The translations under genes were made by a program, and so were the position numbers. From Agrobacterium tumefaciens (GTDB lineage Bacteria; Pseudomonadota; Alphaproteobacteria; Rhizobiales; Rhizobiaceae): 64,000 nt of DNA. Every line of letters starts with the position of its first letter. Positions within the stretch are counted from its first letter, which is position 1. The notes under the pieces were generated by a model. The model was given only the letters and a program-made list of their open reading frames with translations, was not told the DNA's origin and searched no databases. Location of the stretch: positions 2,361,001-2,425,000 of the forward strand of contig NZ_CP072308.1 in assembly GCF_017726655.1 (NCBI RefSeq). Reading direction: 5' to 3'. Below are positions 13,207 to 40,497 of this stretch, piece by piece.

Positions 13207-14323
13207 CGGTGCCGGCGGCGCCATCGAGATCGAGGTGAACCTTGCCCGGTTCCGGCAGCGCCAGAGCTGCCTCGACGGCGTCGGCCATGGACTGTCCAGA
13301 GATGTTTTTTTCCTCCAGCACCTGCGCCAGCCCGAGCCGCGCCAGCCGTTCCGCGCGGGCGCTCTGCTCCGTCTCGCCACCGGCTGCGAAGGGGATCAGG
13401 AGCGAGCGGCATTTCGCCTGGAGGATGTCGCAAACGGTGTTGTAGCCCGCCTGCGAGACCGAAAGCCGCGCGCCTGCCAGAAGACTGGCGAAATCCTTGC
13501 GGAAGCGGAAGACGGAGACATTGTCCGGCGCTTCAGCGGAGATCGCATCGAAATCCGTCTGCGGCATGTTCGGGCCGGTGACGAGGCACCAGCTTTTGAT
13601 GCCAGGGAGCAACGGGACGGCCTCAAGCGCTGCCCGGATGAGCGCTGCACCGACAGCACCGCCACCTGCGGAAACGACGATATCGAATTTTTCCACCGGC
13701 TCCGGCGGTGGCAGCGGGGCGACGAGCCCGGTATAGACAATGCGCTGGCTGATCTCGTTCGCGAGGGGGAAGGTATCTTCCAGCCTGGCGAAGTCGGGAT
13801 CACCGTGCACCAGCACCGCGTCGAAATGTTTCTTCACCAGGGAAACGGTCTCTTCGTCCCGGCCCGGCTTGGTCTTTTCCTGCAGGATATCACGCAGCGA
13901 TGTCATGACCAGCGGGCGTTGTTCGCTGTCTTCAATCTCGTCCAGCAGCGGCAGCAATTCGAAGCGCACCTGTCTGCGGCCAAAGGGGAAAGCCTCGATG
14001 ATGACGATATCGGGTTTCGCGCCGTGATAGGCGCCGATCAGCATATCGGTTCTGAGGTTCTTGAAGGCGTCGTCAACCGGCTTACCGGCACTGTCGACAA
14101 GGCCGGAAAAGCTGCCGTCACTCACGGCGATCGGCGGCAACTCCACATGGCGGATGCCTTCACCCGGAAAACCCGGAACTGGAGTACCGCCGGTGACGAG
14201 AACAACGTCAAAGCCATCCGCCTGCAGAGCATTGGCGATGCGGCTGGCGCGGGCAATATGGCCGATGCCGAGAAGATGCTGGACGTAAAAGAAAACACAG
14301 GGACGTTTTTCCATCTCGGTCAT
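13172..14323 (-). CDS. Glycosyltransferase, MurG-like GT-B fold (COG4671-type)
   Basis: 383 residues from ATG 14323, which overlaps the stop of the upstream gene by four bases (ATGA); a start at 14338 would reach further into that gene. The N-terminus YVQHLLGIGHIARASRIANAL is the glycine-rich acceptor loop of MurG/GT28-like enzymes, and the C-terminal half has a donor-binding pattern VSQAGYNTVCDILQAKCRSLLIPF and a following EQ pair. No membrane segment is seen. It is the last of three glycosyltransferase genes behind the oligopeptide-type ABC transporter and is a paralogue of the gene at 15605. The sugar moved is unknown. Confidence 0.8.
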   Translation of the reverse strand: MTEMEKRPCVFFYVQHLLGIGHIARASRIANALQADGFDVVLVTGGTPVPGFPGEGIRHVELPPIAVSDGSFSGLVDSAGKPVDDAFKNLRTDMLIGAYHGAKPDIVIIEAFPFGRRQVRFELLPLLDEIEDSEQRPLVMTSLRDILQEKTKPGRDEETVSLVKKHFDAVLVHGDPDFARLEDTFPLANEISQRIVYTGLVAPLPPPEPVEKFDIVVSAGGGAVGAALIRAALEAVPLLPGIKSWCLVTGPNMPQTDFDAISAEAPDNVSVFRFRKDFASLLAGARLSVSQAGYNTVCDILQAKCRSLLIPFAAGGETEQSARAERLARLGLAQVLEEKNISGQSMADAVEAALALPEPGKVHLDLDGAAGTARALRRLYDER

Positions 14324-15567
14324 GGTGTCTTTTCCCACTCGGTCTCGAACAGAGCCTTCAATTCCGCGATACTGGTGCGATGATCGAAGGCGGTTCGCAC
14401 ACGGTTTTCTGCGGCAGCGCCCAGACGTTGGCGCAGTTGCGGATCGGTGATCGCGCTGCGCAGCGCTTCCGCAAAGGCTGCCGGATTTTCCGGCTCCGTC
14501 AGCAGACCGTTTTCGCCATTGACGAAGAACTCCGGAATGCCTGAAATATTGGTGGAAACGCAGGTCAGCGCCTGGCTCGCTGCCTCGACCAGCACATTGG
14601 GTAGACCGTCGCGATCGCCATCGCTGGTGATGCGGCAGGCCAGCGCAAAGAGGTCGGCTTCCCGATAATTCTGCAGCACCTGCTTCTGGTCCATGGCGCC
14701 GGTCCAGACGATCCTGTCGGCGATGCCGAGTTCGTCGGCCAGTTTTTTCAGTGGGGTCAGTTCGTCACCGCCGCCGATATGGGTGAAGCGCCAATGGATG
14801 CCATGGGGAAGCGAAGCGAGTGCCCGCAGCAGAATATCGATGCCCTTTTTCTTCACTGCCCGACCGACGCTCAAAATCCGAACGGGGTCATCCGGATTGG
14901 ATCCGTCCCGCGCTGGGCGGGGCGTTTCGAAATGCGGAAATCGGGTGAGATCGAGACCGTGATAGCTTAGATGCACATTCCGCCGCGCCCCGGAAAGGGT
15001 CTGCAGGTGCTGAAAGCCACCAGCGGTGCAGGTAACGGCCCAGCGGGCGCTTTGCAGCTTGGCGGCAAGGTCGCGGTCGCCGGAGGTCCAGATGTCCTTT
15101 GCGTGCGCCGAAATCGTCCACGGCACGCCCGTGATGAGATGGGTATAGGCTGCGACCGACGCGGGCGTGTGGATGAAATGGACATGCAGCCATTCGGCAT
15201 CCTCTGGCCATTCATGCGCGAGCACCGCGGCCTGCCCAAAGCGGCGGAAGCGGTTTCGGCTGAAATCATGCGGCAGGTCGCTGAAAAAACGGCGAAGCGC
15301 TCTGCTGAAACCGCGCTTCTTGCGGCAGGCCCAGAGCGCTTTCAGGACCCGCAAAGGCTCTTCATGCAGATATTCCGGCAGATATGTGACGGGCGCCCGG
15401 ATTTCATCGTGGACAGGATGACGTTTCTTGTCCGTCGGCCGGCGCATCGACACGAGTTCGAGTTCCAGCCCCGCCTTTTCCAGCCCCAGAAGTTCCTGGG
15501 CGATGAACGTCTCAGACAGGCGCGGGTAGCCCTTCAGGAGCACCACGATCTTTTTCGTATCAGTCAC
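14320..15567 (-). CDS. Glycosyltransferase family 4
   Basis: 415 residues, starting at a GTG (15567) since the family N-terminus KIVVLLKGYPRLSETFIAQEL follows at once. The C-terminal GT1 domain shows ILSVGRAVKKKGIDILLRAL near residues 232-251, and the nucleotide-sugar region with DRDGLPNVLVEAASQAL carries the second Glu of the EX7E motif in a slightly altered form. The N-terminus is like WcaL/colanic-acid type enzymes. It is 37 bases downstream of the glycosyltransferase at 15605 and overlaps the next by four bases. Likely builds a surface or lipid-linked glycan. Confidence 0.85.
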   Translation of the reverse strand: MTDTKKIVVLLKGYPRLSETFIAQELLGLEKAGLELELVSMRRPTDKKRHPVHDEIRAPVTYLPEYLHEEPLRVLKALWACRKKRGFSRALRRFFSDLPHDFSRNRFRRFGQAAVLAHEWPEDAEWLHVHFIHTPASVAAYTHLITGVPWTISAHAKDIWTSGDRDLAAKLQSARWAVTCTAGGFQHLQTLSGARRNVHLSYHGLDLTRFPHFETPRPARDGSNPDDPVRILSVGRAVKKKGIDILLRALASLPHGIHWRFTHIGGGDELTPLKKLADELGIADRIVWTGAMDQKQVLQNYREADLFALACRITSDGDRDGLPNVLVEAASQALTCVSTNISGIPEFFVNGENGLLTEPENPAAFAEALRSAITDPQLRQRLGAAAENRVRTAFDHRTSIAELKALFETEWEKTP

Positions 15568-15604
15568 AGCGTGTATGTCTCTAAAAATTGGTGTCGAGCC
15601 GACA

Positions 15605-16813
15605 TCAGGCGCTCAGCGTCATCTGTGATCTCTCACCCTCGGGCGGCAGCCATTCGGCAATTCTGCGGGAGATGTTTTCGAGACCGTCGAGCTTCAAGCC
15701 GCGCGCGCTGACCGAAGGCGGCGCGCGATTGGGCAGGGCCTTCAGCGCTGCCGCCATTTTTGCCGGGTTTTCGGCATCTTCCGGCAGCAGCATGTCGAAA
15801 AGACCAAGCTCGGATGCACGACTGGCGCGGATCAGCTGTTCTTCCCGCGGTACCGTGCGGGGCACAACGAGGGCGGGCTTATCGAAGGATAATATCTCGC
15901 AAACAGTATTGTAGCCGCCCATCGAGACAACGGCCTGCGCACCAGCGACGAGGTCTTCCATGCGGTTATCGAATTCGATGATCTCGATATGCGGGATATC
16001 GGCGACGCTGCTCATGAAGCGCTGGCGCTGGTCTGCCGGCATATAGGGGCCAAGCACGACGAGCGCCTTGTGGGTGAGTTCTGGGTCATGGTGATAGGCG
16101 TTGATGACGTCGTCGATCAATTCACTGCCGTCGCCGCCGCCGCCGGTGGTGATGAGAAGATAATCGCCTTCCGGCCGGTGAGCCACTGTCTCGGCCTGCG
16201 TCTTGGATCGCTGGAGAAAGCCGACGAAATCCATCTTGTCGCGAACGGTCTTCGGAACGTCGAGCCCTGTCAGCGGATCGTGAAAATCAGGCGGACCATA
16301 GACCCAGACATGGTCATAGAGCTTGCCGATCTTGTTCATGACATTGTTGCGCTTCCACTCGGCCTCGAGCAGCTGCGGCGCATCCATGACGTCGCGCAGG
16401 CCGATGACGAGCTTGGTGCCCTGTCCCTTGAGATAGGCGAGCGTCTCTTCCACCTCGCCGCGCAAGCCCATGGGCTCCTTGTCGACGATGAAGATGTCAG
16501 GCTTAAAGCTTTCGGCGGTATGATAGATGATGGAGCGGCGCATCTTCAGCGTTTCCTGAAGATCGATGTGCCTGTCCATCGAGGTGTATTCACCATTGCG
16601 GAGCTTGATGACGCTCGGGATTTTCACGAAATCGACGCGGGCGCGGTAATCGAATGCACCGGCAATGGTGGCGCCTGAAATGATGAGAACGTTCAGGCCG
16701 CGATAGTCCTCCACCAGCGCGTGCGCGATCGTGCGACAGCGCCGCAGATGGCCGAGACCGAAGGAATCATGGCTGTACATGAGAATGCGCGCGTCGTTCA
16801 AACGGGAGCTCAT
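15605..16813 (-). CDS. Glycosyltransferase, MurG-like GT-B fold (COG4671-type)
   Basis: 402 residues from ATG 16813, chosen because AGAGGTG lies just upstream and the family start ARILMYSHDSFGLGHLRRCR follows. The C-terminal half has VVSMGGYNTVCEILSFDKPALVVPR with a later EEQLIRA segment, matching the donor site of the gene at 13172. These two are clearly of one family, so the operon may hold two related transfer steps. It starts 73 bases after the last permease gene of the ABC transporter, in the same direction. Substrate unknown. Confidence 0.8.
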   Translation of the reverse strand: MSSRLNDARILMYSHDSFGLGHLRRCRTIAHALVEDYRGLNVLIISGATIAGAFDYRARVDFVKIPSVIKLRNGEYTSMDRHIDLQETLKMRRSIIYHTAESFKPDIFIVDKEPMGLRGEVEETLAYLKGQGTKLVIGLRDVMDAPQLLEAEWKRNNVMNKIGKLYDHVWVYGPPDFHDPLTGLDVPKTVRDKMDFVGFLQRSKTQAETVAHRPEGDYLLITTGGGGDGSELIDDVINAYHHDPELTHKALVVLGPYMPADQRQRFMSSVADIPHIEIIEFDNRMEDLVAGAQAVVSMGGYNTVCEILSFDKPALVVPRTVPREEQLIRASRASELGLFDMLLPEDAENPAKMAAALKALPNRAPPSVSARGLKLDGLENISRRIAEWLPPEGERSQMTLSA

Positions 16814-16885
16814 GGGCCACACCTCTTTTTGCCTTCCACAAAAAAGGCGATGGCTGAAGGGCAATAGATCAAGGTGTATTCCATT

Positions 16886-18061
16886 TTATCTGAAGGGGTC
16901 CGCCGCATCACGTAGTCCGTCGCCGAAGAAATTAAAGGCCAGGATGACGAGAACGACCGGGATCGTCGGGATGAGAAGCCACGGATATAGCGCAATGACG
17001 CTGACGCTGCGCGCCTCCGTGAGCAGAATTCCCCAACTTGTGATCGGTGGCCGAAGACCGAGGCCGAGGAAGCTCAACGCAGTCTCGCCGAGGATCATGC
17101 CGGGAATGGTGAGCGTCGCCGAAGCGATGAGATGTGACATGAAGCCGGGAATGAGGTGTCGGCCAATGATGCGCGAAGTTCCGGCGCCCATCAATTGTGC
17201 TGACAAAACATAGTCTTCTTCGCGAAGCGCCAGCAGTTTGGAACGCACGGCGCGCGCAAGGCCCGTCCAGTCCAGCATGCCGAGAATAATGGTGATGCCG
17301 AGATAGACGAGGATGGGGCTCCAGGTCACCGGCATGATTGCGGCGAGCGCCAGCCAGAGCGGAATGCTCGGAATGGATTGCAGCACCTCGATGATGCGCT
17401 GGACGATCAGGTCGAATGTGCCGCCGCGATATCCCGCGAGACCACCGATCACAATGCCGAGAACGAAGCTCATCGCGACGCCGAGAAGGCCGATAGTCAA
17501 CGAAATGCGCGCGCCGTAGATGATGCGGGAAAGCACGTCACGGCCGAGCCGGTCGGTGCCAAGCAGGAACATTTCTCCGCCTTCGGCCGGGCAGACGAAG
17601 TGGGTTCTGCCTTCAAACAGGCCCCAGAAACGATAGGTGTCACCCTTGCAGAAGAAGCGCAGCGGCTGGATATCCGTTGGCACGTCGCGGTAGACGCGCC
17701 GCAGATTATCCATGTCGAGCGTCATCTCGCGGCCATAAACGAAGGGCCCGACAAATTTTCCGTCGTTGAAGAGATGAATGGACTGCGGCGGCGCGTAGAT
17801 ATGATCGATGTTGCGGGTGTGCAGATTATAGGGCGCAAGGAATTCGCAGATGAGGATGGACAGATAAAGCACCAGCAGAAAAGCGCCGGACCAGACGGCA
17901 ATCTTGTGCTGGCGGAACTGCCACCACATCAGGCGCAGCTGCGACGCCTTGCTGAAGGCGGCCATGCCCGATGTGTTGGGTTCGATCAGAGAAGGATCGA
18001 AAGGCGCTGTCGAGACATAATGGGGAAGGGCGTCGCCGGGCTTCGGGATGGATGAAGTCAT
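16886..18061 (-). CDS. ABC transporter permease, OppC/YejE type
   Basis: 391-residue permease. A long cytoplasmic N-terminus leads to a first membrane segment near residues 57-77, then a periplasmic stretch of about 90 residues, longer than in common OppC proteins and like YejE. Five further segments follow. The ATPase-docking loop is visible as LREEDYVLSAQLMGAGTSRIIGRH. The start overlaps the previous permease stop (ATGA). It is the fourth gene of an ATPase - binding protein - permease - permease operon. The glycosyltransferase operon continues 73 bases downstream. Confidence 0.88.
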   Translation of the reverse strand: MTSSIPKPGDALPHYVSTAPFDPSLIEPNTSGMAAFSKASQLRLMWWQFRQHKIAVWSGAFLLVLYLSILICEFLAPYNLHTRNIDHIYAPPQSIHLFNDGKFVGPFVYGREMTLDMDNLRRVYRDVPTDIQPLRFFCKGDTYRFWGLFEGRTHFVCPAEGGEMFLLGTDRLGRDVLSRIIYGARISLTIGLLGVAMSFVLGIVIGGLAGYRGGTFDLIVQRIIEVLQSIPSIPLWLALAAIMPVTWSPILVYLGITIILGMLDWTGLARAVRSKLLALREEDYVLSAQLMGAGTSRIIGRHLIPGFMSHLIASATLTIPGMILGETALSFLGLGLRPPITSWGILLTEARSVSVIALYPWLLIPTIPVVLVILAFNFFGDGLRDAADPFR

Positions 18062-19056
18062 TTGACGTTACCACCTCCAAAGCGGATTCGGGGATCGAGT
18101 ATGGCAAGGGCTATGTCCGAAACCAGAACGCCGATGACCGTCAGGAAGGCAAGGAACATCAGGAACGAGCCGGCCAGATACATGTCCTGACTCTGCAACG
18201 CCCTGATCAGCATCGGGCCGGTTGTTTCCAGCGACAGGACGACCGCTGTGATTTCCGCTCCCGATATAATGGCGGGCAGGATAGAGCCGATATCCGAGAT
18301 GAAGAAGTTGAGAGCCATGCGTAGCGGATATTTGGTCAGCACCTTAAAGGGGTGCAGACCCTTGGCGCGAGCGGTCACCACATATTGTTTCTGCAGCTCA
18401 TCCAGAAGGTTGGCGCGCAGCCGACGGATCATGCCGGCGGTGCCCGCCGTGCCAATGATGAGCACCGGTATCCAGATATGCTCGAGGATCGACTTGAACT
18501 TCGCCCAGCTCATCGCCTGATTGAGGTACTCCCGGTCCATCAGGTGGCCGATGGAGATGCCGAACCAGATGTTGGCGAAATACATCAGGATCAACGCCAA
18601 CATGAAGTTTGGAATGGCGATGCCGAGCAGGCCGAGGAAGGTGAGGCCATAATCGCCCCAGCTGTATTTGTGGGTGGCGGAATAGATGCCGATCGGGAAG
18701 GCAATGAGCCACGTGACGATGATCGTCAGGAAGGACACGAGCACCGTCAGCCAGAGGCGGTCGCCCACGACATCGCTGACGGGCAGCTGATATTCGAAGG
18801 AATATCCGAAATCGCCGACCAACATACCCGTCGCCCAGCGGAAGTAGCGGATCGGTGCAGGCTGGTCGAAACCATAGCGGGCGCGCAACTCCTCGATTTC
18901 AGCAAGGTTCGCCGTCTCGCCCATGGCGCGCAACTCGGCGACATAACTTTCGAAATAGTCACCCGGCGGCAGCTCGATGATGGTGAAGACAAGCATCGAA
19001 ATCAGGATCAGCGTTGGGATCATGACGAGGATGCGCTTTAAAATATACCGCAGCAT
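18058..19056 (-). CDS. ABC transporter permease, OppB/YejB type
   Basis: 332 residues from ATG 19056, one base after the TGA of the binding-protein gene; the N-terminus MLRYILKRILVMIPTLILIS is the standard first helix of OppB-type permeases. About six membrane segments. The docking loop reads VVTARAKGLHPFKVLTKYPLR near residues 230-250. The last four bases overlap the next permease. Together they form the channel of a family-5 (dipeptide/oligopeptide/nickel type) importer, whose real substrate may be a peptide, an opine-like compound or an oligosaccharide. Confidence 0.88.
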   Translation of the reverse strand: MLRYILKRILVMIPTLILISMLVFTIIELPPGDYFESYVAELRAMGETANLAEIEELRARYGFDQPAPIRYFRWATGMLVGDFGYSFEYQLPVSDVVGDRLWLTVLVSFLTIIVTWLIAFPIGIYSATHKYSWGDYGLTFLGLLGIAIPNFMLALILMYFANIWFGISIGHLMDREYLNQAMSWAKFKSILEHIWIPVLIIGTAGTAGMIRRLRANLLDELQKQYVVTARAKGLHPFKVLTKYPLRMALNFFISDIGSILPAIISGAEITAVVLSLETTGPMLIRALQSQDMYLAGSFLMFLAFLTVIGVLVSDIALAILDPRIRFGGGNVK

Positions 19057-19057
19057 A

Positions 19058-20959
19058 TCAGGCCTCTCCGTCATACCAGAACGTATCCGGCATGTAGACG
19101 CCGAGATACGATGTCGGTTCATAACCGAAAAGCGCCTTGTCCGGCACGTTTCGCATGCGCTTCACATGGACAACCGGTTGCAGCGCGCCGTTGACAATGC
19201 CGATGGAAAAGACCTGCTGGGTGTAAACGCCAAGCATTTCCAGCCAGATCGCCTCGCGTTCTTCCTCTGTCACGCTTCTGCGCCAGGTCTTCAGGAGATC
19301 GAGCAGATGGGCTGCTTCCTTCAGGTCGGGCTCCTTCCCCTCGCGGCCGCCCGAGAGATAGTGAATGCCCCAGACCGGCCATTGAAGCTGGTCGTCGCCT
19401 GTGGGGGCAAGCCCTGACGGCAGCATGTCGGCCGTGGGCACGCCATTATCCATCCCCATCCACACCGACATCAAGACTTCGCCGCCCATGGCGCGCTTTC
19501 GGAAAACATCACGCTGGGTAGGACGAACGGAAACCGCGATGCCGATATGCCGCCAGTGGTCCGTGACCAGCTCCATCACGTCGGTTTCCAGCGTGCTTTC
19601 GCCCGTGGTCTCGACGATAATGTAAGCCGGGCGGCCGTCCGGCAGAAGACGAAGGCCGGCATCGTCGCGTTTGTCGAGACCGACCTCATCGAGCAATCTA
19701 TTTGCCGCTGCGCGGTCAAAGGCGCTCCAGGCGTCCGCAAATTCCTGCCGGTAAAGCGGGCTTTCCGGTAGAACGGTGTCGGCGCTTTCCTTGGCGAGCC
19801 CGTAAAAGCAGACCATGTTGATTTCGTGCCGGTTGATGGCAAGCGACAGAGCGCGGCGCACACGCACGTCCTGGAACGTGCTTCGCCAGACCGGATCGGC
19901 GCAGTTGAGATTTGGCAGGAGCGCGATGCGCGAGCCCTGGGAGCGCTTGTAGAGATTAACCTTCAGGGGAAAACGCTTCTCCGCGTCCTTCAGGAACGTG
20001 TAATCGGCAAAATCGAGGCCGAAATATTGCAGGTCGCTATCGCCCGAGGCTGTCTTGGCGGAAATGATGTCGGACGAGGTGACGTTCAGCAGGAAGCGGT
20101 CGAGATAGGGCAGTTGCAGCCCGTTTTCATCGACGCGGTGGTAGTAGGGATTGCGTTCGAAGACGAATTGTTCGGCCGGTGGTGCGGTGGTGTTGCGCCA
20201 GGCGTCAAGTGTTGGCAGAGCAGGGTTTTCCGGGCGCACCTGCCGCGACATCTTGATGTGCAGACCGCTCCAGTCATCCGCCTTGTTTTTCTTGATGAGC
20301 TTGGCGAGGTTTTCCGGCGTCTGATATTTGACGTGGAACTGCTTCATGTACGCGGCTGGCAAGAACAGCCGCGCCGGCGACGCTGCCGCAAGCTTCGCCA
20401 GAAAATCCGGGTTCGGGCCATCCCAGCTGTAACGCACGGTCAGCTTGTCGATCACCTCGATCTGGGGTGGCTTGTTGTTGACGAGAAGCTCGATTGGCGG
20501 GCCACCCTTGTGGATTTCCTTATTGAGAGCGACATCCTCCCAGAAATAGCGAAAATCCTCTGACGTGAAATCGCTGCCATCGGACCATTTGTGGCCCTCA
20601 CGCAGCTTGAAGGTGAAGATGCGCTCTTCCTGGACCTCGTAGCTTTCGAGGATATCCGGATGCAGCTCGAATTTCTCATCATATCCGACGAGCCGGGCAT
20701 AGTTGCTGATGGGCATCAGGCGGATATCTCGCTGCCCACCGATCAGCATGCGCACCGTGCCGCCGTGTTTTCCGGGCTCGCGTCCGAGCGCTTTCACGTC
20801 GATCACACGCGGGTTTTTCGGCAGCCGGTCGGCGACGCCCGGTAATTCGCCTTTCTCGCGCTTTTCCTTGAAGTAGTCAGGATCAACATAAGCGGCGCGC
20901 GCAAAGGCCGGCATAAAAACGGAGGCCAGAAGGGCAAGGGTGGTGCGACGCGTGATCAA
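19058..20959 (-). CDS. ABC transporter periplasmic binding protein, family 5
   Basis: 633 residues. The start is a TTG overlapping the upstream ATPase stop (TTGA); it opens ITRRTTLALLASVFMPAFARA, a signal peptide with a twin-Arg pair that could use Sec or Tat, with cleavage near residue 22. The mature part is a large SBP_bac_5 protein with the landmark FKLREGHKWSDGSDFTSED at about residues 116-134, and is longer than typical DppA, close to the YejA-like and oligosaccharide-binding branch. It sets the specificity of the transporter encoded around it. Its ligand cannot be read from sequence; the neighbouring glycosyltransferases make a glycan fragment possible. Confidence 0.88.
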   Translation of the reverse strand: MITRRTTLALLASVFMPAFARAAYVDPDYFKEKREKGELPGVADRLPKNPRVIDVKALGREPGKHGGTVRMLIGGQRDIRLMPISNYARLVGYDEKFELHPDILESYEVQEERIFTFKLREGHKWSDGSDFTSEDFRYFWEDVALNKEIHKGGPPIELLVNNKPPQIEVIDKLTVRYSWDGPNPDFLAKLAAASPARLFLPAAYMKQFHVKYQTPENLAKLIKKNKADDWSGLHIKMSRQVRPENPALPTLDAWRNTTAPPAEQFVFERNPYYHRVDENGLQLPYLDRFLLNVTSSDIISAKTASGDSDLQYFGLDFADYTFLKDAEKRFPLKVNLYKRSQGSRIALLPNLNCADPVWRSTFQDVRVRRALSLAINRHEINMVCFYGLAKESADTVLPESPLYRQEFADAWSAFDRAAANRLLDEVGLDKRDDAGLRLLPDGRPAYIIVETTGESTLETDVMELVTDHWRHIGIAVSVRPTQRDVFRKRAMGGEVLMSVWMGMDNGVPTADMLPSGLAPTGDDQLQWPVWGIHYLSGGREGKEPDLKEAAHLLDLLKTWRRSVTEEEREAIWLEMLGVYTQQVFSIGIVNGALQPVVHVKRMRNVPDKALFGYEPTSYLGVYMPDTFWYDGEA

Positions 20960-22848
20960 GGGCGAAGCTCCCTGATATCGGCATTGCCGTTGGCCAGCAC
21001 GAAATGACCCTCGCCGAGGTCGGCTGAAACCATCTGGCCGTCGCCGTCATCCCGGAATTGTTTGCCCCAGTCGAATTTGCCCGTCGCGCTGATTTTGCCG
21101 ATGGTGCTAAAATCAAGCGGGCGATCGAGATCGGGGAAGGGCACGGCTGCGAGCAGCGATTTTGTATAGGGGTGGACGGGAGCGCGCATCAGGCTCTCGC
21201 GCGGCGCCAGCTCCACGATACGGCCTTCACACATGACAGCTACACGGTCCGCCATATAGTCCACGACCGCCAGATTGTGCGAGATGAAGAGATAGGTCAG
21301 CCCGAGATCCTGCTGCAAGTCCTTCAGTAGATTGAGGATTTGTGCCTGCACGGACACGTCGAGGGCAGAAACGGGTTCATCGCAGATCAGCAGTTCCGGT
21401 CCGAGTGCCAGCGCCCTGGCAATACCGATACGCTGCCGCTGGCCACCGGAGAAGCTGTGCGGATAACGGTTCAGTGCGCTTTCGCCAAGGCCGATCGCCC
21501 TGACCAGACCGCGAACTTTTTCCGCCCGGTATTTGGCGTCGCCGCGTCCATGGATTTCAAGCGGTTCGCTCAGAATGTTGCCGATGGTCATGCGCGGCGA
21601 GAGCGAGGAAATCGGGTCCTGGAAGACCATCTGTATCTTCGAGCGAAGCTCTTTCAGCTCGCCGTCCTTGGCATTGAGCACATCGATATCGCCTTCCTTC
21701 CGATGGAAAGTTATCGAGCCCTCATCGGGGCGAACCGCGCGCATCAGGATTTTGCTGACGGTTGTTTTGCCGCTGCCGCTTTCGCCGACCAGGCCGAGAC
21801 ATTCGCCACGGCGGATTTCGAAACTGACGCTATCGACAGCCTTCGTCGCATTGGCAGCGCCTTTGCGGAACCAGCTCGATTTGCGGGTCGTGAAGGTCTT
21901 GCTGATATTGTCTACCGTCAGCAGCGGGCCTGGGGTCTTGTTAACCGCGGCGGTCTTCTTGCCGACCAGACTTTCGTGGTCGATGTTGATTTCACGCAGC
22001 GCCTTCAGCCTTTCGCCCGGCTTCATGTCGAAGTGAGGCACAGCCGCCATCAGCCCCTTCAGATAAGGGTGGGCAGGCGCCTTGAAAATGTCGTCGACGG
22101 TGCCGGCTTCCATGATTTCGCCCTGATAGATCACGGCAACCTCGTCGGCGATGTTTGCCACCACGCCCAGATCGTGGGTGATGAGCAGCATGCTCATGTT
22201 GAGCCGGCTCTGAAGATCGCGCAGCAGTTTCAGAATCTGCGCCTGTATCGTCACATCAAGCGCGGTCGTCGGCTCATCGGCGATGAGAAGTGCCGGACGA
22301 CAGATGAGCGCCATGGCGATCATCGCGCGCTGTCGCATGCCGCCCGACAGTTCGAACGGGTACATGTTCACGACCTTCTTTGGATTCGAAAAGCCGACGA
22401 GGTCGAGGGTCTCGTACATTTTTTCAGCACGCTCTGCCGGTGACAGGATGCTGTGAATGCGAAGCGCTTCATCGATCTGGTTGCCGATTGTGTGCAGCGG
22501 CGAAAAGGAGGTCATGGGTTCCTGAAAGATCAGGCCGATGCGATTGCCGCGGATCGAGCGTATTTCCCGTCCATCCTTCGGCAATTGCAAGAGATCGACG
22601 GGGCCGGCGGCGGCATTTTCTGGATCGGTAAAGAGCACGCGGCCGCTCACCCGCGCCGTCTTGGGATGAATGCCCATGATCGTCTGGCCGATGACCGACT
22701 TGCCTGAGCCGGATTCGCCCACCAAGGCTGTCACTTTTCCCGGAAGAATGCGAAGGCTGGTGTCCCTGACGGCATCGATGGTGCCGCCCATGAGAGAAAA
22801 TGAGACCCGCAGATTTTCGATACGGAGCAAATCTGCGCCAGCGCTCAT
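20956..22848 (-). CDS. ABC transporter ATPase, two fused nucleotide-binding domains (YejF/GsiA type)
   Basis: 630 residues holding two full OppD/OppF-like ATPase domains. First domain: Walker A GESGSGKSV near 42, signature LSGGMRQR near 167, Walker B LLIADEPTT near 189. Second domain: Walker A GESGSGKTT near 353, signature FSGGQRQR near 470, Walker B LLICDEPVS near 493. An oligopeptide-type C-terminal extension (HPYTKSLLAAVPFPD) follows the second domain, and a similar HPYLKGLMAAVPH follows the first. It is first in the operon, which runs to the glycosyltransferases. It energises the permeases at 16886 and 18058. Confidence 0.92.
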   Translation of the reverse strand: MSAGADLLRIENLRVSFSLMGGTIDAVRDTSLRILPGKVTALVGESGSGKSVIGQTIMGIHPKTARVSGRVLFTDPENAAAGPVDLLQLPKDGREIRSIRGNRIGLIFQEPMTSFSPLHTIGNQIDEALRIHSILSPAERAEKMYETLDLVGFSNPKKVVNMYPFELSGGMRQRAMIAMALICRPALLIADEPTTALDVTIQAQILKLLRDLQSRLNMSMLLITHDLGVVANIADEVAVIYQGEIMEAGTVDDIFKAPAHPYLKGLMAAVPHFDMKPGERLKALREINIDHESLVGKKTAAVNKTPGPLLTVDNISKTFTTRKSSWFRKGAANATKAVDSVSFEIRRGECLGLVGESGSGKTTVSKILMRAVRPDEGSITFHRKEGDIDVLNAKDGELKELRSKIQMVFQDPISSLSPRMTIGNILSEPLEIHGRGDAKYRAEKVRGLVRAIGLGESALNRYPHSFSGGQRQRIGIARALALGPELLICDEPVSALDVSVQAQILNLLKDLQQDLGLTYLFISHNLAVVDYMADRVAVMCEGRIVELAPRESLMRAPVHPYTKSLLAAVPFPDLDRPLDFSTIGKISATGKFDWGKQFRDDGDGQMVSADLGEGHFVLANGNADIRELRP

Positions 22849-27832: not shown

Positions 27833-27851
27833 CGCTATCTCATAGATAGCG
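27833..27851. other. Hairpin at the convergent ends of the methyltransferase and cyclase genes
   Basis: CGCTATCT (27833-27840) and AGATAGCG (27844-27851) pair perfectly around CAT and include the cyclase stop codon. No T-run on either strand. It may protect the 3' ends of both messages. Confidence 0.35.
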
Positions 27852-29534
27852 TTGGCTCTCTTCTGCAGAGAGCAGGAAGACCTTCATCTGCGAATTACGG
27901 CCGCGAATGACGATCTGTTCGCTTCTGAGATCGGCAATCGGCTGCCCCGCCTGAATGATGGCAGGTTCGGAAACCACGATGGCGGCGCCGAACTCCTTGG
28001 CTTTGGATTCGAGCCTGCTTGCAACATTGACGGTATCGCCGATGGCCGTCAATGTTTTTGCAGCACCGTATCCCATGACGCCGACGATGCTCGGGCCCGA
28101 ATGAATGCCGACCACCACGTCCAGACGGACAGAAAATTGCTTTTCTAGCCCCTCGTTAAGCGTTGCTATATCGCGTAAAATGGTCGCGGCCGCCTTCATG
28201 GCATCGCGACAGCCATTCTCCGCATCGTCACCCAGTCCGAAAAGCGCCATGGCGCCGTCGCCGATAAATTTGTCCAGATGGCCGCCCGCATGTTCGACGG
28301 CCTGGCCGACGATGGTGAAATAGCGGTTGAGCAGGAAGACGACGTCGTAAGGAAGCTTTGCTTCGGATAGCGTTGTAAAGTTTCTGAGATCGCAGAAGAG
28401 GATGGCTATTTCCTCTTCGCGGCCAGGCCTGGCCGGCTGGGCATCTGCCGGCAGGTCGCTTTGCTGGGGCGGTGAGACCAGAAGTGCGATATCCAGATCT
28501 TTGGTGGGACGCAGCTGGCAGCCCAGCCGTACATCGGAATCGGCATGAATGCGCCGTAACGTCGTCTGTTCGATGTCGCCGGGCGGGGGAAGCGGCCCAT
28601 TGCTATGCAAAACCTTGACGCGACAGGTCGAGCACCGTCCCTTGCCGCCGCAGACGGAGTAGTGCGGGATGCCCGCAAGCCGGCTCGCTTCGAGAATGCT
28701 GAACCCCGCCGGAACACGCGCCTGCGCGCCATGTTCGTAGTTGATGCCGATGGCGGTCAATCGCTGGCGAAAACTGCGCACCCCACGCAACATGAAGACG
28801 AGGAGAACAGCGCCGGCGAAAACCGCTTCTATTGTGCCTGTGACGAAACTGATCCGGGTCTCCATCTCCCGCTGCAGCGGCAGTTCGTCTCTCTGGATGG
28901 TGCTGTCCATCAGCCCAGGTGGAAGAGCGTATTTCTGATCGATTTCCTGAAGCCAGCGGCCGGCATCACTGAAGCCCAGGAGCGCCAGAAGCGGCAGCAT
29001 GACCGCCACGGTCATGAAAAGGCCGGCGATGCGCGGATACCAGTCCCGGTACCGCAGCCAGAAATAAAGGCCGATACATCCGTGGACCCAGATGACAACC
29101 AAGGCGAGGCTTTGCCAGGCGCCGCCCATGGGATTGTTGATCCAGAGCCGCCGCACCACCGAATAATAGCCGACATCGATGCCATACATCATATGCGACA
29201 CGCGGATGTTGACCGCGTGGCTGATGATCAGGAATGGGATCGAAAGGCCAAAGACGATCTGCAGCGCTTCCCGTAGCGGCATGCGCAGTGTCTGCCGCAG
29301 GTAGAGCGAGCGCAACACGAGACAGACGTGAACCAGAACCGAACCGTAAAACAGCAGGCTGCTGACAGGGTTGAGCCAGATCAGGCTGAACCATTTGCGC
29401 GCGCGCTCAGCAGTGTCGATCGAGATGAGCGCGAGGGAGTGGTTGAAAAGATGGGAGAAAACGAAAGAAAATATGATGAGGCCGGAGAGGATCCGGGCAC
29501 GTCTCAAATTGGTTTCTGAAAAGAAACGGATCAT
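27840..29534 (-). CDS. Membrane adenylate cyclase with [2Fe-2S] ferredoxin domain
   Basis: 564 residues in three parts. Residues about 15-250 hold six hydrophobic segments with His in or near helices at 28, 32, 69, 106 and 151, a pattern like a heme-b (succinate dehydrogenase-type) anchor. Residues about 255-350 form a ferredoxin domain with Cys295, Cys301, Cys304 and Cys339 (CX5CX2C...C). Residues about 375-560 are a class III cyclase: metal Asp382 and Asp426, base-selecting Lys422 and Asp500, transition-state Asn503 and Arg507. The Lys/Asp pair predicts ATP rather than GTP as substrate. The layout suggests cAMP synthesis under redox control. It is downstream of the MBL, cNMP-binding and ABC-like genes on the same strand, with a 209-base gap that may hold its own promoter. 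Confidence 0.9.
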   Translation of the reverse strand: MIRFFSETNLRRARILSGLIIFSFVFSHLFNHSLALISIDTAERARKWFSLIWLNPVSSLLFYGSVLVHVCLVLRSLYLRQTLRMPLREALQIVFGLSIPFLIISHAVNIRVSHMMYGIDVGYYSVVRRLWINNPMGGAWQSLALVVIWVHGCIGLYFWLRYRDWYPRIAGLFMTVAVMLPLLALLGFSDAGRWLQEIDQKYALPPGLMDSTIQRDELPLQREMETRISFVTGTIEAVFAGAVLLVFMLRGVRSFRQRLTAIGINYEHGAQARVPAGFSILEASRLAGIPHYSVCGGKGRCSTCRVKVLHSNGPLPPPGDIEQTTLRRIHADSDVRLGCQLRPTKDLDIALLVSPPQQSDLPADAQPARPGREEEIAILFCDLRNFTTLSEAKLPYDVVFLLNRYFTIVGQAVEHAGGHLDKFIGDGAMALFGLGDDAENGCRDAMKAAATILRDIATLNEGLEKQFSVRLDVVVGIHSGPSIVGVMGYGAAKTLTAIGDTVNVASRLESKAKEFGAAIVVSEPAIIQAGQPIADLRSEQIVIRGRNSQMKVFLLSAEESQRYL

Positions 29535-29653
29535 GCAAGTCCCGTCAGATAGCCTTCACGGCATGGAATCAAAATGCAGTATGATGTGGTGGCCCCTTAA
29601 TGCGGGCCGCCTCGTGGCAATATCGTGGAGCAATCGATCGCATGCGGTCAATT

Positions 29654-29671
29654 GTGCGTGTTCGATCGCAC
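29654..29671. promoter_or_regulatory. Inverted repeat upstream of the cyclase gene
   Basis: GTGCG (29654-29658) and CGCAC (29667-29671) flank an 8-base spacer in the gap before the cyclase start. The layout resembles a CRP/FNR-type half-site pair, but the arms are CG-rich and the spacing differs from the TGTGA-N6-TCACA standard. Function is uncertain. Confidence 0.25.
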
Positions 29672-29743
29672 GCTCCAATGAAGCTACTTCATAGGCGCTG
29701 GGAAAACTATCGCGCCGGCGACAGCCATATCAGATTGGCTCGC

Positions 29744-30604
29744 TTAGATGTCGATAATCTGGCCATCCATGGCGGCAAACGCACCGCTGAACTCGGCTTT
29801 CGCCAGTTTGACGATAGTATCCAGTTCCTCGTCGCTGCGGCTGGGCGCGTGGTGGATGAAGCCGACATTCTTAGCATCGGCAAGTTTGGCAAGACGGATC
29901 GCCTGTTGCCAGGAAGAGTGGCCATAACCGCGGTAGAGACCCATTTCCTCATCTGTAAACATGGCGTCGTAGAGAAAGAGATCGACGTCCCTGATCAGTT
30001 CGAGCACGTTTTCGTCGATTTGTCCCGGCTCATGCTCCGTATCGGTGATGATGGCCAGCGACTTTCCTTCCCAGTCCAGACGGTACCCAACGGCGTTGCC
30101 GGGATGATTGAGCATGCCGGTTCTGATCGAGAGTCCGGGATGAACATCGAGCACATCGCCCGGCAGGAAGTCCCGCGTCGCCATCTTCGCGCAGCAAATC
30201 TCCAGTGGGACCGGGAACCAGGGGGGGCTCATGAAGTCTTTGAGCATTTCCCTCGTCGTCATGGAGCCGCAGAGGTGGCCCGACCAGATGGCAACGTCAT
30301 TGGCGCTGTTATAGAAGGGTTTAAAATAGGGGAAGCCAACGATGTGATCGTAGTGACAGTGGGAAAAGAAGAGATTGACGTCGGTAACGCCTTCGGCGCG
30401 CAGGGCAAGACCCGCCGGATGAAGGCCCGAACCCGCATCGAACAACAGAACGTGATCACCGCATCTCACCTCGATGCAGATGGTATTCCCGCCGTATTTT
30501 CGGAAGTTTTCACCTGAAACGGGAAGCGTTCCCCGCGCACCCCAGATCTTTACCCGAAAATTCCTATTACTTTCCCGACGTGTTGTGTCGGAATTGAACG
30601 CCAT
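29744..30604 (-). CDS. MBL-fold metallo-hydrolase
   Basis: 286 residues from ATG 30604; an upstream in-frame TTG at 30622 is less likely. The domain opens VKIWGARGTLPVSGENFRKYGG and has the metal motif HCHYDH at residues 82-87, a HPGNA segment, Asp in IITDTEHE and a final HH in GFIHHAPS. This is the branch of the beta-lactamase fold that includes RNase Z-like and class II cyclic-nucleotide phosphodiesterase-like proteins. Its place between a cyclase gene and a cNMP-binding gene makes cyclic-nucleotide hydrolysis a reasonable guess, but other phosphodiesters are possible. Confidence 0.8.
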   Translation of the reverse strand: MAFNSDTTRRESNRNFRVKIWGARGTLPVSGENFRKYGGNTICIEVRCGDHVLLFDAGSGLHPAGLALRAEGVTDVNLFFSHCHYDHIVGFPYFKPFYNSANDVAIWSGHLCGSMTTREMLKDFMSPPWFPVPLEICCAKMATRDFLPGDVLDVHPGLSIRTGMLNHPGNAVGYRLDWEGKSLAIITDTEHEPGQIDENVLELIRDVDLFLYDAMFTDEEMGLYRGYGHSSWQQAIRLAKLADAKNVGFIHHAPSRSDEELDTIVKLAKAEFSGAFAAMDGQIIDI

Positions 30605-30794
30605 GGCACACCCCAATAACAACGGAAACTTGCACGCTTTCCTCCCATGAAGCCCGTTGTCTCTACAGATTCTTATATCCGCCCTCGTTGGAGCGGCCGC
30701 CTTTCCCCTTATTCAGTCAGCATTTCATTTATATTGCAATAGTACGACATTTATTTTTCCAATGTCGCCGCGTCCGGTAGCACAGATATGCCAT

Positions 30795-31250
30795 TCATGT
30801 TTTGGAGGTGGTACGCGCTTTGCTGAGTTCTGCCGTGGTCTGGGTGAGGCGTTCGGCAAGAACGCGCATGACCTTGATCGTGATATCGGGGAAGTCCGAC
30901 ATCAGTTTGAAGAACTGCTCCTTGCCGATGCGCAGGGCTTCCACATTGGTGGAGGCACGAATGGTCGCCGTTCTGACGCTGTCGCACAGGATGGCGATTT
31001 CGCCGACGATGGCGTTTCCGGTCATTTCGGCGACCTTCAGGGTGCCAGAGGGGGAATCGACCAGGACATCCACCTTGCCGGTAAGAAGAACATAGGCGGC
31101 ATCGCCCACATCGCCCTGGCGGAACAGTGTATCGCCAGCGTGATAGGAGACCCGGTCTGATGCGAATGCCAGCAGCTTGAGTTTCGATGGCTCCATTTCC
31201 GAAAAAAACGGAACCCGCTTCAGCATCTGAATTTCGTCTTTAAACAGCAT
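30795..31250 (-). CDS. Stand-alone cyclic nucleotide-binding domain protein
   Basis: 151 residues from ATG 31250. Nearly the whole protein is one CAP-like domain: LKRVPFFSEMEPSKLKLLAF, then SYHAGDTLFRQGDVGDAAYVLLTG, and the phosphate-binding cassette VGEIAILCDSVRTATIRA with the conserved Glu and Arg that contact the cyclic nucleotide. A C-terminal helix follows, and there is no DNA-binding domain, so it is a sensor or regulatory subunit and not a CRP-type transcription factor. It starts 43 bases after the ABC-like gene and precedes the MBL gene, so it could carry the cAMP signal to the ABC-like membrane protein. Confidence 0.85.
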   Translation of the reverse strand: MLFKDEIQMLKRVPFFSEMEPSKLKLLAFASDRVSYHAGDTLFRQGDVGDAAYVLLTGKVDVLVDSPSGTLKVAEMTGNAIVGEIAILCDSVRTATIRASTNVEALRIGKEQFFKLMSDFPDITIKVMRVLAERLTQTTAELSKARTTSKT

Positions 31251-31293
31251 TGTCTTACCCTGTTCCTGTTCCACCTCGGCCACATTGTTTACG

Positions 31294-34011
31294 TTATGTC
31301 GCGACCATTTCCTTGAATGTACCGTTTTCCTCGGCCAAAGTCTCGAAACTTCCGTCAGCCGTTATCGACCCCTGGTGCACAACGATGATCCGCTCGAACA
31401 GGCGCGACAGATGCGCGTTCGACAGAACCCAGATGATCGCCGGATTATTGTTGTTCTGTTTCAGGAGTGTGATGACGCGTTCGACGATTTCTTCCTGCTG
31501 TCTTGGGTCGAGCCCCGGGAGAGGGCGGTTGAAGACGTAGTAGTCGGATTTGCGGATAAGCGCCCTTGCAAGGTTTAGCTTCTGGCGCTGGAGCGGTCCG
31601 AGCCGCTTGCCACCGGCGCCGAGGTTGAAATCGAGACCGACGGCCAGCACCCGCTCGTAAACGCCCTGCTTGCGCATCACATCGGCCACGATCCGGGTGA
31701 TGCGGCGCGAGGCGTCGGTGTAACGGTGGCTGACCTTGCCGAAGAGGATGTTGTCCAGAAGGCTGGTCGCGCTCATGTATTTGGTTGGATCGTAGATTTC
31801 GATCACGTTTTTCAGGCTGTCGGGCAGGTTCTCATGGAACATGTGCCGGACCTCGACAATCCTGTTCATGATCTCAGGCGTCAGAAGACCAAAACGCTGG
31901 CGAGGTTCGATGTAGAAGAAGCTGAGCCGCAGCATCGCCCGTTTTTCGTTTTCATTGGCCTCGTCGAAACTGCGGCTCTGAAGACGTTGCAGCATCTGCT
32001 GATAGACCGGAACGTCATCCGGCGTCATGAAGGTCAGCTGCTGGAAGAACGGGTGGTCTCCCGGCAGGTCGGCGAAGATTTCCACGATGTTTTCCGCGAT
32101 CGTGTACCCCATTTCGAACAGGGTTTTGACGAGCCCCGTTTCACGCATCAGCGAGCGGAAATAATCGCTTTCGATAACGGTCCTGATGGATTGCGACGAG
32201 TCGCGCATGGTGCCGAACAGCAGGTTTTCACCGACCGTCGCCTCGCTATTGTAGCTCTCCAGTTCGAAGGGAGCGATAAGGCCGCTCAGGTTTTCCTTTT
32301 CCAGTTCGGCACGCAGCACATGCCGCAGCTCCACGATACGGGCGGCAAGATGCAGGTCCGTCAGAGGATCGATCGAGGAGCGCAGGGCAAACTCCAGAAT
32401 ATCCTGGGAGAGTTCGACGCTGTCGAGTACGTCTAGAATGGCCTGGATCAGATTTTCCGGGCGGCCGTCGCCCGCGGGGCTCGAGGCGTAGTCGATCCAT
32501 TCACTGTTGATATCGATGAGCGGATTTCCCGCCATCTTCGCCTCACGGATTTCCCACTTGCGGTGTTCCAGTGCGGCGCCCTCATACTCCTTGTCCGAGA
32601 GAGGCGCGTGTTTCAGGCCGTAAAGCAGATTATCCTTCAGGCTGGCGTGGAAGAAATAGCTGTCCGACGACACGTAGGAAATCCGTCGCCCCGTCAGCGA
32701 TTCCGGCAGTTCTAGGATGTCGACGTCATTGAGGCTGATCTTGCCCGATATCGGCCAGAGCGTGCGGCCGATCGCATCCGCAAGCGCCTCGGCTCCGGAC
32801 CCGCCGACGATCGCGATCACCTCGCCCGGCTCGATCTTCAGCGAAGCCTGCTCCAGAAGGCGGCTGCCGCTATCGTCTTCCAGCGTCAGATTGGCGACGA
32901 CGAGCGGTGCGCTGATGGCCGCGACGGCGCCCGGCGAGAGTTTCTGCACCTTCTCGTCGATCATGTTCGGCGCATCGAACTGTTCGAAGACCTGCTCGTA
33001 TTTCACCTGCACGTCCTGCCGGGCCTGATCCCAGTCGATCAGCTCCTTCAGAGGGCCGGGAAGTTCCTTATAGGCATTGATGACGGCGACGAGCTGGCCC
33101 ACGTCGAGGCTGCCTTTGAGGGTGAGATAGCCTCCGAGCGCATAGAAGAAAAAGGGAGTAAGCTGGGCAAGGAAGTTATTGATGAACTTGACCAGAAACT
33201 TCCACTGGTAGAGATCGTAGCGGATCTTGAAGATATCGCCGAGGCGATGGGAAGCATCCGCGCGCTCGTAGTTGGACGTGTCATAGGCATGGATCGTGCC
33301 GATACCGTCAACCATTTCGCCGATGCGTCCGGCAAGCTGACGTGCACTCAGCTGCCGCTGGCGGCCGAGTTCGATCAGGCGGCGGCGCATTTTCGGAATG
33401 ATGCCGACCTGGATCGCCGCCATGAAAGCTGCGATCAGGCCCAGCCAGAAGTTCTGGACGAGGATGAAGAACAGCGCGGACAGCGCCTGACCGCCGAGAA
33501 GCGCCGGCTGGACGAAGGCGTCGCCGGTAAAGCCGCCGAGCGGCTCCACCTCGTCCTTCACCATGCTGGAGATTTCCGCTCCCTTGACCCGCTTGAAGTG
33601 GGAGGGCGGGAACCGCAAAATCTTGTCGATGAGCTCAAAGCGGATACGCCGCAGAAGCCGTTCACCAAGCCGGCCCTTGTAGGTGTTGATGTAATATTTG
33701 AAGAGGCCGTTGATAATGACAAGCGCAAGGAACGTGAGGCTGAGCGCCATCAGCATCGACATGCGGTTGAGCTCAAGGCCCGGAAACAAGGTCACGGTGC
33801 CCCAATAGGGAATATCCGCCGTGAGATGCATGAAGAGCTGCGTTGCATTCGCGCCTTCGAACCCGTCGCCCTGAATAGGACCGTTAACGATCTGTTTGGG
33901 CAGGTCGAATGCCAGGAAATAGGGGATCATGGACAGGGCCACGATCAGCAGAATAAAAAGCTGCTGCCGCTTTGTGTGCGACCAGATATAACGCGTAAGG
34001 CTTTGTTCCAT
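31294..34011 (-). CDS. ABC exporter-like membrane protein with degenerate ATPase motifs and a large NBD insertion
   Basis: 905 residues. The N-terminal about 330 residues are an ABC exporter-type membrane domain (first helix near 17-36, a long loop to about 85, later helices near 88-108, 170-200 and 275-300). The nucleotide-binding domain starts near 370 but Walker A reads GGSGAEAL (403-410) and lacks Lys; Walker B reads YYVFNRP (824-830) with no Asp-Glu; the signature is LGPLQRQ (804-810). D-loop PGLD survives, and the H-loop His is not in place. About 300 extra residues lie between the Q-loop region and the signature. ATP hydrolysis looks unlikely, so it may be a gated channel, receptor or scaffold. 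It heads the minus-strand cNMP module, divergent from the hydrolase at 34291. Confidence 0.85.
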   Translation of the reverse strand: MEQSLTRYIWSHTKRQQLFILLIVALSMIPYFLAFDLPKQIVNGPIQGDGFEGANATQLFMHLTADIPYWGTVTLFPGLELNRMSMLMALSLTFLALVIINGLFKYYINTYKGRLGERLLRRIRFELIDKILRFPPSHFKRVKGAEISSMVKDEVEPLGGFTGDAFVQPALLGGQALSALFFILVQNFWLGLIAAFMAAIQVGIIPKMRRRLIELGRQRQLSARQLAGRIGEMVDGIGTIHAYDTSNYERADASHRLGDIFKIRYDLYQWKFLVKFINNFLAQLTPFFFYALGGYLTLKGSLDVGQLVAVINAYKELPGPLKELIDWDQARQDVQVKYEQVFEQFDAPNMIDEKVQKLSPGAVAAISAPLVVANLTLEDDSGSRLLEQASLKIEPGEVIAIVGGSGAEALADAIGRTLWPISGKISLNDVDILELPESLTGRRISYVSSDSYFFHASLKDNLLYGLKHAPLSDKEYEGAALEHRKWEIREAKMAGNPLIDINSEWIDYASSPAGDGRPENLIQAILDVLDSVELSQDILEFALRSSIDPLTDLHLAARIVELRHVLRAELEKENLSGLIAPFELESYNSEATVGENLLFGTMRDSSQSIRTVIESDYFRSLMRETGLVKTLFEMGYTIAENIVEIFADLPGDHPFFQQLTFMTPDDVPVYQQMLQRLQSRSFDEANENEKRAMLRLSFFYIEPRQRFGLLTPEIMNRIVEVRHMFHENLPDSLKNVIEIYDPTKYMSATSLLDNILFGKVSHRYTDASRRITRIVADVMRKQGVYERVLAVGLDFNLGAGGKRLGPLQRQKLNLARALIRKSDYYVFNRPLPGLDPRQQEEIVERVITLLKQNNNNPAIIWVLSNAHLSRLFERIIVVHQGSITADGSFETLAEENGTFKEMVAT

Positions 34012-34230: not shown

Positions 34231-34290
34231 TGAGACTGTATTTTTAGATTTCGCTAATATTGTTGTTTTTATTGTAGAACAGGCACTGTG

Positions 34291-39578: not shown

Positions 39579-39584
39579 GAATGA

Positions 39585-40493: not shown

Positions 40494-40497
40494 GGTC

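Follow-up and report, generated by a model that had tools for sequence, protein, structure and literature searches.

Bacterial cyclic AMP (cAMP) is known to act mostly through transcription factors. In cyclic-nucleotide-gated channels such as SthK, a domain binding cyclic nucleoside monophosphates (cNMP) gates the membrane domain, and SUR1 and SUR2 use the fold of ATP-binding cassette (ABC) exporters for regulation and not for transport, with nucleotides bound at their nucleotide-binding domains (NBDs) and with no known cNMP subunit. The cyclase CyaC (SMc01818) of Sinorhizobium meliloti reportedly contains four heme-ligating histidines and an iron-sulfur cluster (work from 2019). CyaC is described as a quinone-responsive diheme cyclase below which the cascade was unknown before the finding of Clr and CycR, and how signals from the 28 cyclases present in S. 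meliloti are kept separate was considered unclear (Klein et al., 2023; PMC10463352). Two further papers describe HetC of Nostoc PCC 7120 as a peptidase-containing ABC exporter with an N-terminal cNMP domain that is needed in vivo (PMC10986499) and assign the signature [T/S]HxHxDH to the atypical class II phosphodiesterases Rv1339, YhfI and CpdA of Corynebacterium (PMC9293780). Here we analyze a locus in a 64,000-nucleotide stretch of the Agrobacterium tumefaciens genome (NZ_CP072308.1, positions 2,361,001 to 2,425,000; the window), in which a CyaC-like cyclase gene is found together with genes for a metallo-beta-lactamase-fold hydrolase (MBL), a stand-alone cyclic nucleotide-binding protein (CNB) and an ABC exporter-like membrane protein (ABC-like protein). 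We consider it fairly probable that the locus is a cAMP circuit whose receptor, CNB, is a subunit of an ATP-blind pseudo-ABC membrane protein.

All four genes are located on the minus strand in the order ABC-like, CNB, MBL and cyclase, as a preliminary description of the window had stated, and the Pfam assignments (scores above the curated cut-offs) agree with it: ABC_membrane (82.7 bits) and ABC_tran (37.1 bits, covering amino acids 386-480 only) in the ABC-like protein, cNMP_binding (74.3 bits) in CNB, Lactamase_B_2 (PF12706, 61.5 bits) in MBL and Guanylate_cyc (70.5 bits) plus Fer2 (31.0 bits) in the cyclase. The ATG of CNB follows the stop codon of the ABC-like gene after 43 bp, and gaps of 190 bp and 209 bp separate CNB from MBL and MBL from the cyclase; the four genes may be split over more than one transcript. 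Alternative starts are a GTG at 31283 for CNB (162 amino acids) and a TTG at 30622 for MBL (292 amino acids).

Conservation of gene order had been set beforehand as the refuting test of the proposed module, and the link between the ABC-like gene and CNB proved to be very strong in the genomes compared. In a sample of 150 genomes from the order, 61 encode the ABC-like protein, some of them at two or three loci. From the 67 match rows obtained 60 loci were fetched, the omitted rows being fragments or contig ends (G078 twice, G067, G046, G114, G092:C3 and G123). In 59 of these 60 loci the gene immediately downstream, on the same strand, is CNB; so it is in 80 of 80 loci from named nearer relatives (the best 80 of 495, closely related throughout and 56-96% identical). 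In the 53 split loci of the order the median gap between both genes is 44 bp, and the remaining six of the 59 encode a single fused protein. In a sample of 398 genomes from the phylum (43 match rows, 20 further loci fetched), the ABC-like protein was detected in 32 genomes, all but one in the class of the window, and CNB was linked in 18 of the 20 further loci (ten adjacent, eight fused). Over the order and phylum samples, ABC and CNB form one fused protein in 14 of 77 loci, and protein searches yielded many more natural fusions. At E values up to 1e-3, 4408 proteins were matched, ordinary ABC proteins possibly being included. A tree of the 77 proteins, built with a quick method and containing some long branches, implies three changes between the fused and the split state, two of them forced. 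The own genome (2.91 + 2.17 Mb) contains three class III cyclase, eight cNMP_binding and 13 ABC_membrane matches (eight of these 13 exporter sequences were read, the window protein among them); the window pair is the only one in which an ABC_membrane match adjoins a cNMP_binding match, the next nearest pair being approximately 25 kb apart. Since the gene order is kept far beyond the genus and the pair is the sole one of its kind in its own genome, the adjacency exceeds what would be expected by chance.

Some deviating loci were recorded alongside these counts. One genome (G084) has two ABC-like paralogues, L047 and L082, of which one is accompanied by CNB only and the other by CNB, MBL and a cyclase (within approximately 9 kb). 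Three ABC-CNB fusions (P0244, P0264 and P0266) carry an additional C-terminal GGDEF domain, and in the two sequences read, P0244 and P0266, the GGDEF motif is missing. The divergent proteins L101, L280 and L281 match only approximately amino acids 331-891, also have neither MBL nor a cyclase nearby, and possibly represent a CNB-free branch; L101 retains three Q-loop-like segments. The module is concealed by ordinary database names, as relatives are entered as 'ABC transporter ATP-binding protein' and 'Crp/Fnr family transcriptional regulator': the CNB counterpart is recorded as a Crp/Fnr regulator in S. meliloti and as a transcriptional regulator in R. etli. From its map position, SMb20813, called 'msbA homolog' in the literature, is presumably the S. 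meliloti orthologue of the ABC-like gene. Among the matches listed in PubMed Central (PMC), no description of the ABC/CNB module, its locus tags, gene names or parts was found.

The second line of evidence concerns the ATP sites of the ABC-like protein. Of the features of a functional exporter, the exporter-type membrane domain and the NBD fold are present in the window protein, whereas the Walker A lysine, the LSGGQ signature with its serine and the catalytic glutamate of Walker B are all lost; the corresponding positions read GGSGAEAL, LGPLQRQ and YYVFNRP. Instead of the one expected Q-loop-like segment, three are found. Among 377 relatives, GK[ST] of Walker A is missing in 361, the signature is LSGGQ in two, LSxGQ in 12 and another form of L[ST]xxQ in 243, Walker B has DE in 11 and NE in 49, and a histidine occupies the place of the H-loop in only 42. 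Evolution is faster in the NBD than in the membrane domain; the gene as a whole is under purifying selection, with a ratio of nonsynonymous to synonymous substitution rates of 0.03-0.14 in five comparisons. These values and the mostly open frames across the class, where a single internal stop was encountered among the ABC-like matches (G463), rule out a decayed pseudogene. An AlphaFold2 model, compared structurally by VIA-align, predicts a type IV exporter fold. On the best reading of the motifs, the residues for ATP binding and hydrolysis are gone from the ABC-like protein, and it would not be an ATP-driven pump. The preliminary description as an ABC exporter-like protein thus holds for membrane domain and fold, but the name 'ABC exporter' misleads in view of the lost ATP sites, and an insertion of approximately 270 amino acids sets the protein apart. 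A group of CNB-fused relatives (P0257-P0262 and L093, from Thalassospira and others) retains Walker A, and some of its members also DE in Walker B; possibly these fusions represent an ancestral, ATP-competent state.

CNB contains the glutamate (Glu84) and the arginine (Arg93) of the phosphate-binding cassette, which are kept in 55 and 58 of 59 CNB relatives, respectively, and it matches SthK. PF00027 is the sole Pfam domain in its 151 amino acids, and no helix-turn-helix DNA-binding domain was found in CNB or in the S. meliloti counterpart annotated as Crp/Fnr. The contacts in CNB, the HCHYDH motif of MBL and the Lys/Asp pair of the cyclase had all been named in the preliminary description and were recovered here.

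MBL combines the PF12706 domain with the [T/S]HxHxDH signature of the atypical class II phosphodiesterases, and His82, His84, Asp86, His87, His167, Asp188 and His251 are invariant in 33 relatives. Profile searches matched RNase Z (the best solved matches), YhfI (6kns) and Apyc1 (7u2s), and the NCBIfam model NF041851 for a cyclic nucleotide-degrading phosphodiesterase was matched with 51.2 bits (E 1e-13), far short of its cut-off of 400 bits. MBL is probably a cyclic nucleotide phosphodiesterase. In 28 of 59 loci it immediately succeeds CNB on that strand (gene starts chosen by script), with overlapping frames in 13 of the 28, and it is found within approximately 9 kb, where contigs allow, in 33 of 59. 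MBL relatives occur in 48 of the 61 genomes with the ABC-like gene and in five of the 89 without it, and in 37 of the 48 the two genes are no more than 25 kb apart; co-occurrence was assessed by Fisher tests, which ignore kinship.

The cyclase has the properties of a CyaC-like enzyme: a membrane anchor of six hydrophobic segments with His28, His32, His69, His106 and His151, the cysteines of a [2Fe-2S] (Fer2) domain and the class III catalytic residues, including the adenine-selecting pair Lys422/Asp500. The five histidines and the four Fer2 cysteines are invariant in 26 of 26 cyclase relatives; of the catalytic residues, Asp382 and Asp426 are kept in 26, Arg507 in 24, Lys422 in 23, and Asp500 and Asn503 in 22. 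This composition suggests a quinone-redox input. CyaC-like genes were found in 42 of the 61 genomes with the ABC-like gene and in five of the 89 without it (up to nine candidates scored per genome, kinship again ignored), which, like the fusions and the co-occurrence of MBL, speaks for the grouping into one module. At the locus itself, a cyclase directly follows CNB in 10 of 59 cases, and a cyclase of any kind occurs within approximately 9 kb, where contigs allow, in 33; a wider view of 21 of the 26 cyclase-less loci added five more. Of the 33 cyclases near the locus, eleven belong to the same type as the window cyclase; the complete sequences of two others contain a membrane part of six segments and no ferredoxin domain. 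In the named loci, 14 of 80 have a cyclase at an identity of at least 45%, or 20 with weak matches included. At E 1e-30, no CyaC-like match was obtained in five genomes of one related genus that possess the ABC-like gene. Four other relatives had such a match, which in three of them shares a contig with the ABC-like gene and is situated 16-20 kb upstream of it. The genes of an Opp-type importer are preceded in R. etli CIAT 652 and S. meliloti by a further cyclase that lacks hydrophobic segments. Two class III cyclases of approximately 448 amino acids, located near the head of the Opp genes and devoid of hydrophobic segments (L222:1742-3091 and L220:650-1993; S. meliloti, R. etli), have the adenine-selecting Lys/Asp pair replaced.

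Several observations weigh against an ATP-blind protein under control of cAMP. Walker A is retained in 16 of the 377 relatives, those of the Thalassospira type also having DE in Walker B, and L[ST]xxQ is retained at the signature position in the 243 relatives mentioned above, which makes ATP use possible in some relatives. Amino acids 176-199 and 302-318 of the modeled membrane domain have a predicted local distance difference test score (pLDDT) below 50, and in a model of the fusion protein P0201 (pLDDT 80.5, predicted template modeling score 0.70) the CNB portion is predicted with fair confidence, and pLDDT drops below 50 in the linker. No CNB is encoded near L101 in the order sample or near L280 and L281 in the phylum sample. 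Of the 42 genomes holding both genes, only 14 have the CyaC-like gene at a distance of up to 25 kb from the ABC-like gene; in the other 28, some of them with short contigs, it is farther away or on another contig. Given these linkage counts and those of MBL, the receptor pair is fixed, the hydrolase nearly so and the input exchangeable; other cyclase types substitute, and the earlier designation as a 'closed' unit was too strong. The cNMP domain of HetC bound guanosine tetraphosphate (ppGpp) and cAMP gave no significant protection (PMC10986499), and S. meliloti CyaC is reported to bind the transcription factors Clr and CycR (PMC10463352). By the latter route some cAMP may reach transcription.

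The motif-retaining relatives and the exporter fold of the model would fit an exporter that is still driven by ATP, acting by itself or as the degenerate partner in a heterodimer, and is tuned by a cNMP subunit as in HetC, and exporters with one degenerate site are known (PMC7756269). However, every ATP motif is eroded in the window protein, the NBD has changed faster than the membrane domain, and a second exporter half is missing, the next PF00664 matches on the same contig of the own genome being more than 150 kb away. We therefore regard a working exporter as unlikely and a heterodimer with a neighboring exporter half as rejected. Somewhat less probable still is that CNB binds a ligand other than cAMP, e.g. 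ppGpp or cyclic GMP, and that cyclase and MBL serve Clr-type factors or other receptors. The ppGpp binding of HetC, the complex of CyaC with Clr and CycR and the 28 genomes with a distant CyaC-like gene agree with such a division; against it stand the near-complete retention of Glu84 and Arg93, the position of MBL directly after CNB with frequently overlapping frames, and the tendency of MBL and CyaC-like genes to occur in genomes that have the ABC-like gene.

The genomic surroundings are rich in glycosyltransferases and Opp genes. In many relatives the Opp/GT28/GT4 block lies directly upstream of the ABC-like gene, and the common chain on one strand is OppDF-SBP5-OppB-OppC-GT28-GT4-ABC-CNB, with a second GT28-like protein before ABC. 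Among the 80 named loci, in which flanks of at most 10 kb make these counts lower bounds, all six upstream genes in chain order and strand occur in 44 and GT28-GT4 in 57. At an identity of at least 45%, OppDF is present in 68 (73 with weak matches), SBP5 in 61, GT28 and GT4 in 58 each and the deacetylase-like protein in 38. These conserved surroundings make a glycan-related output probable. They could also mean that the four genes merely share a polysaccharide cluster without forming a circuit together, but the ABC-CNB order survives the turnover of other neighbors and both proteins fuse, so that this explanation, already disfavored for the ABC-CNB pair, is hardly credible. An anti-phage Pycsar-like system of cyclase and cNMP-binding membrane effector is even more improbable, as the matches of the PADLOC models PycC and PycTIR to cyclase and CNB cover generic domains only, a TIR domain is absent, the Lys/Asp pair fits adenine, and the locus keeps its synteny within a stable cluster in different families and has its own probable phosphodiesterase.

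Two neighboring features were noted in addition. A gene at 34288-36174 encodes a 628-amino-acid double alpha/beta hydrolase whose halves match the exosortase-A-associated hydrolases TIGR03100 and TIGR03101 below cut-off. A row at 38595-41679, seen in five of the 80 named loci, comprises a DUF1839 protein, a short class II aminoacyl-tRNA-synthetase-like protein (PF00587, just below cut-off) and an acyl-CoA dehydrogenase-like protein and resembles amino acid:carrier-protein ligase systems.

Table 1. Features of the locus and its conserved context (window coordinates; aa, amino acids).
Feature	Position	Strand	Remarks
ABC-like gene	31294-34011	minus	905 aa; first in transcription order
Membrane domain, exporter-type, N-terminal			aa 1-345 of ABC-like protein
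Degenerate NBD with ~270-aa insertion			aa 346-905 of ABC-like protein
Walker A position, degenerate, no GK[ST]	32767..32817	minus	aa 399-415
Q-loop-like segment 1, canonical place	32617..32682	minus	aa 444-465
Q-loop-like segment 2, extra copy inside insertion	32212..32277	minus	aa 579-600
Q-loop-like segment 3, extra copy	31738..31803	minus	aa 737-758; signature position ~40 aa further on
Signature position, eroded (LGPLQRQ)	31558..31623	minus	aa 797-818
Walker B position, eroded, catalytic Glu gone	31501..31545	minus	aa 823-837
CNB gene (stand-alone cNMP-binding protein)	30795-31250	minus	151 aa from ATG
MBL-fold hydrolase gene	29744-30604	minus	286 aa from ATG
SHCHYDH metal motif of MBL	30344-30364	minus	PF12706 protein
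CyaC-like class III adenylate cyclase gene	27840-29534	minus	564 aa; fourth in transcription order
Fer2 [2Fe-2S] domain of cyclase	28503..28727	minus	aa 270-344; Cys295, 301, 304, 339
Class III catalytic domain of cyclase	27870..28421	minus	aa 372-555; Asp382, Lys422, Asp426, Asp500, Asn503, Arg507
Opp-type importer (OppDF, SBP5, OppB, OppC), GT28 and GT4 glycosyltransferases	14320..22848	minus	conserved context
Polysaccharide deacetylase-like protein	24012-24755	minus	conserved context
GT4 glycosyltransferase	24752-25849	minus	conserved context

For the cAMP circuit with CNB as a subunit of the pseudo-ABC protein we propose the following sequence of events. The CyaC-like cyclase would produce cAMP, probably in response to quinone-pool redox sensed via membrane hemes and the ferredoxin domain, so that the redox input would raise or lower the cAMP level. 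CNB, attached to the cytoplasmic face of the ABC-like protein or fused to it in some lineages, would bind cAMP and might then shift the conformation of the membrane domain, as do channel-gating cNMP domains. Hydrolysis of cAMP by MBL would reset the signal. The ABC-like protein would most likely act as a cAMP-gated facilitator, as a flippase-like gate or as a membrane scaffold for the glycosyltransferase/Opp-importer cluster. Sequence comparison backs the conserved order, the fusions, the kept cNMP residues, the lost ATP motifs, the three Q-loop-like segments and the purifying selection, and the exporter fold is predicted by the model; cAMP as ligand, hydrolysis by MBL, the contact between CNB and ABC-like protein, the redox input and the glycan-related output are what we infer. 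Due to adjacency plus fusion, the step from CNB to the ABC-like protein is the best supported, followed by the loss of ATP use, then by ligand and input, and last by the output.

More tentatively, these proteins might constitute an alphaproteobacterial family of ABC proteins in which decayed ATP sites, a triplicated Q-loop/helical element (the link between NBD and membrane domain) and control by CNB have produced a cAMP-gated gate or flippase that couples respiratory redox to surface glycan assembly without transcription. An ATP-blind, cAMP-gated protein would represent a mode of control of the ABC fold that is absent from the papers found. A receptor lacking a DNA-binding domain is widespread in the order, tied to a membrane protein and, in the window, encoded beside a CyaC-like cyclase. 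The preliminary interpretation is thus partly supported; it had missed the pseudo-ABC nature and, with the Fer2 domain, the CyaC-like type of the cyclase.

In comparison with type IV (ABCB/MsbA-type) exporters, the window protein has a common fold in the AlphaFold2 model, and SUR1 and SUR2 are among its structural matches; it differs by the insertion, which contains two further Q-loop-like segments, and by a cNMP-binding neighbor or fusion at nearly all ABC-like loci seen. A cNMP-type domain belonging to an ABC-exporter-type membrane protein is shared with HetC, which requires its catalytic glutamate (PMC10986499), whereas the window protein has lost the ATPase motifs. The cNMP domain is N-terminal in HetC but separate, or C-terminal in fusions, in the system described here, and Pfam found no peptidase (C39) domain in the four window proteins. 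MBL resembles Rv1339, YhfI and CpdA in PF12706 and the [T/S]HxHxDH motif and differs from them in that its best solved matches are RNase Z. Compared by description, CyaC and the window cyclase both have a class III domain behind a six-helix membrane part; in S. meliloti the CyaC gene adjoins a TetR gene (PMC10463352), whereas the window cyclase gene adjoins MBL, CNB and the pseudo-ABC gene. Finally, the membrane domain is that of a channel in SthK and of the ABC-exporter type in the window system.

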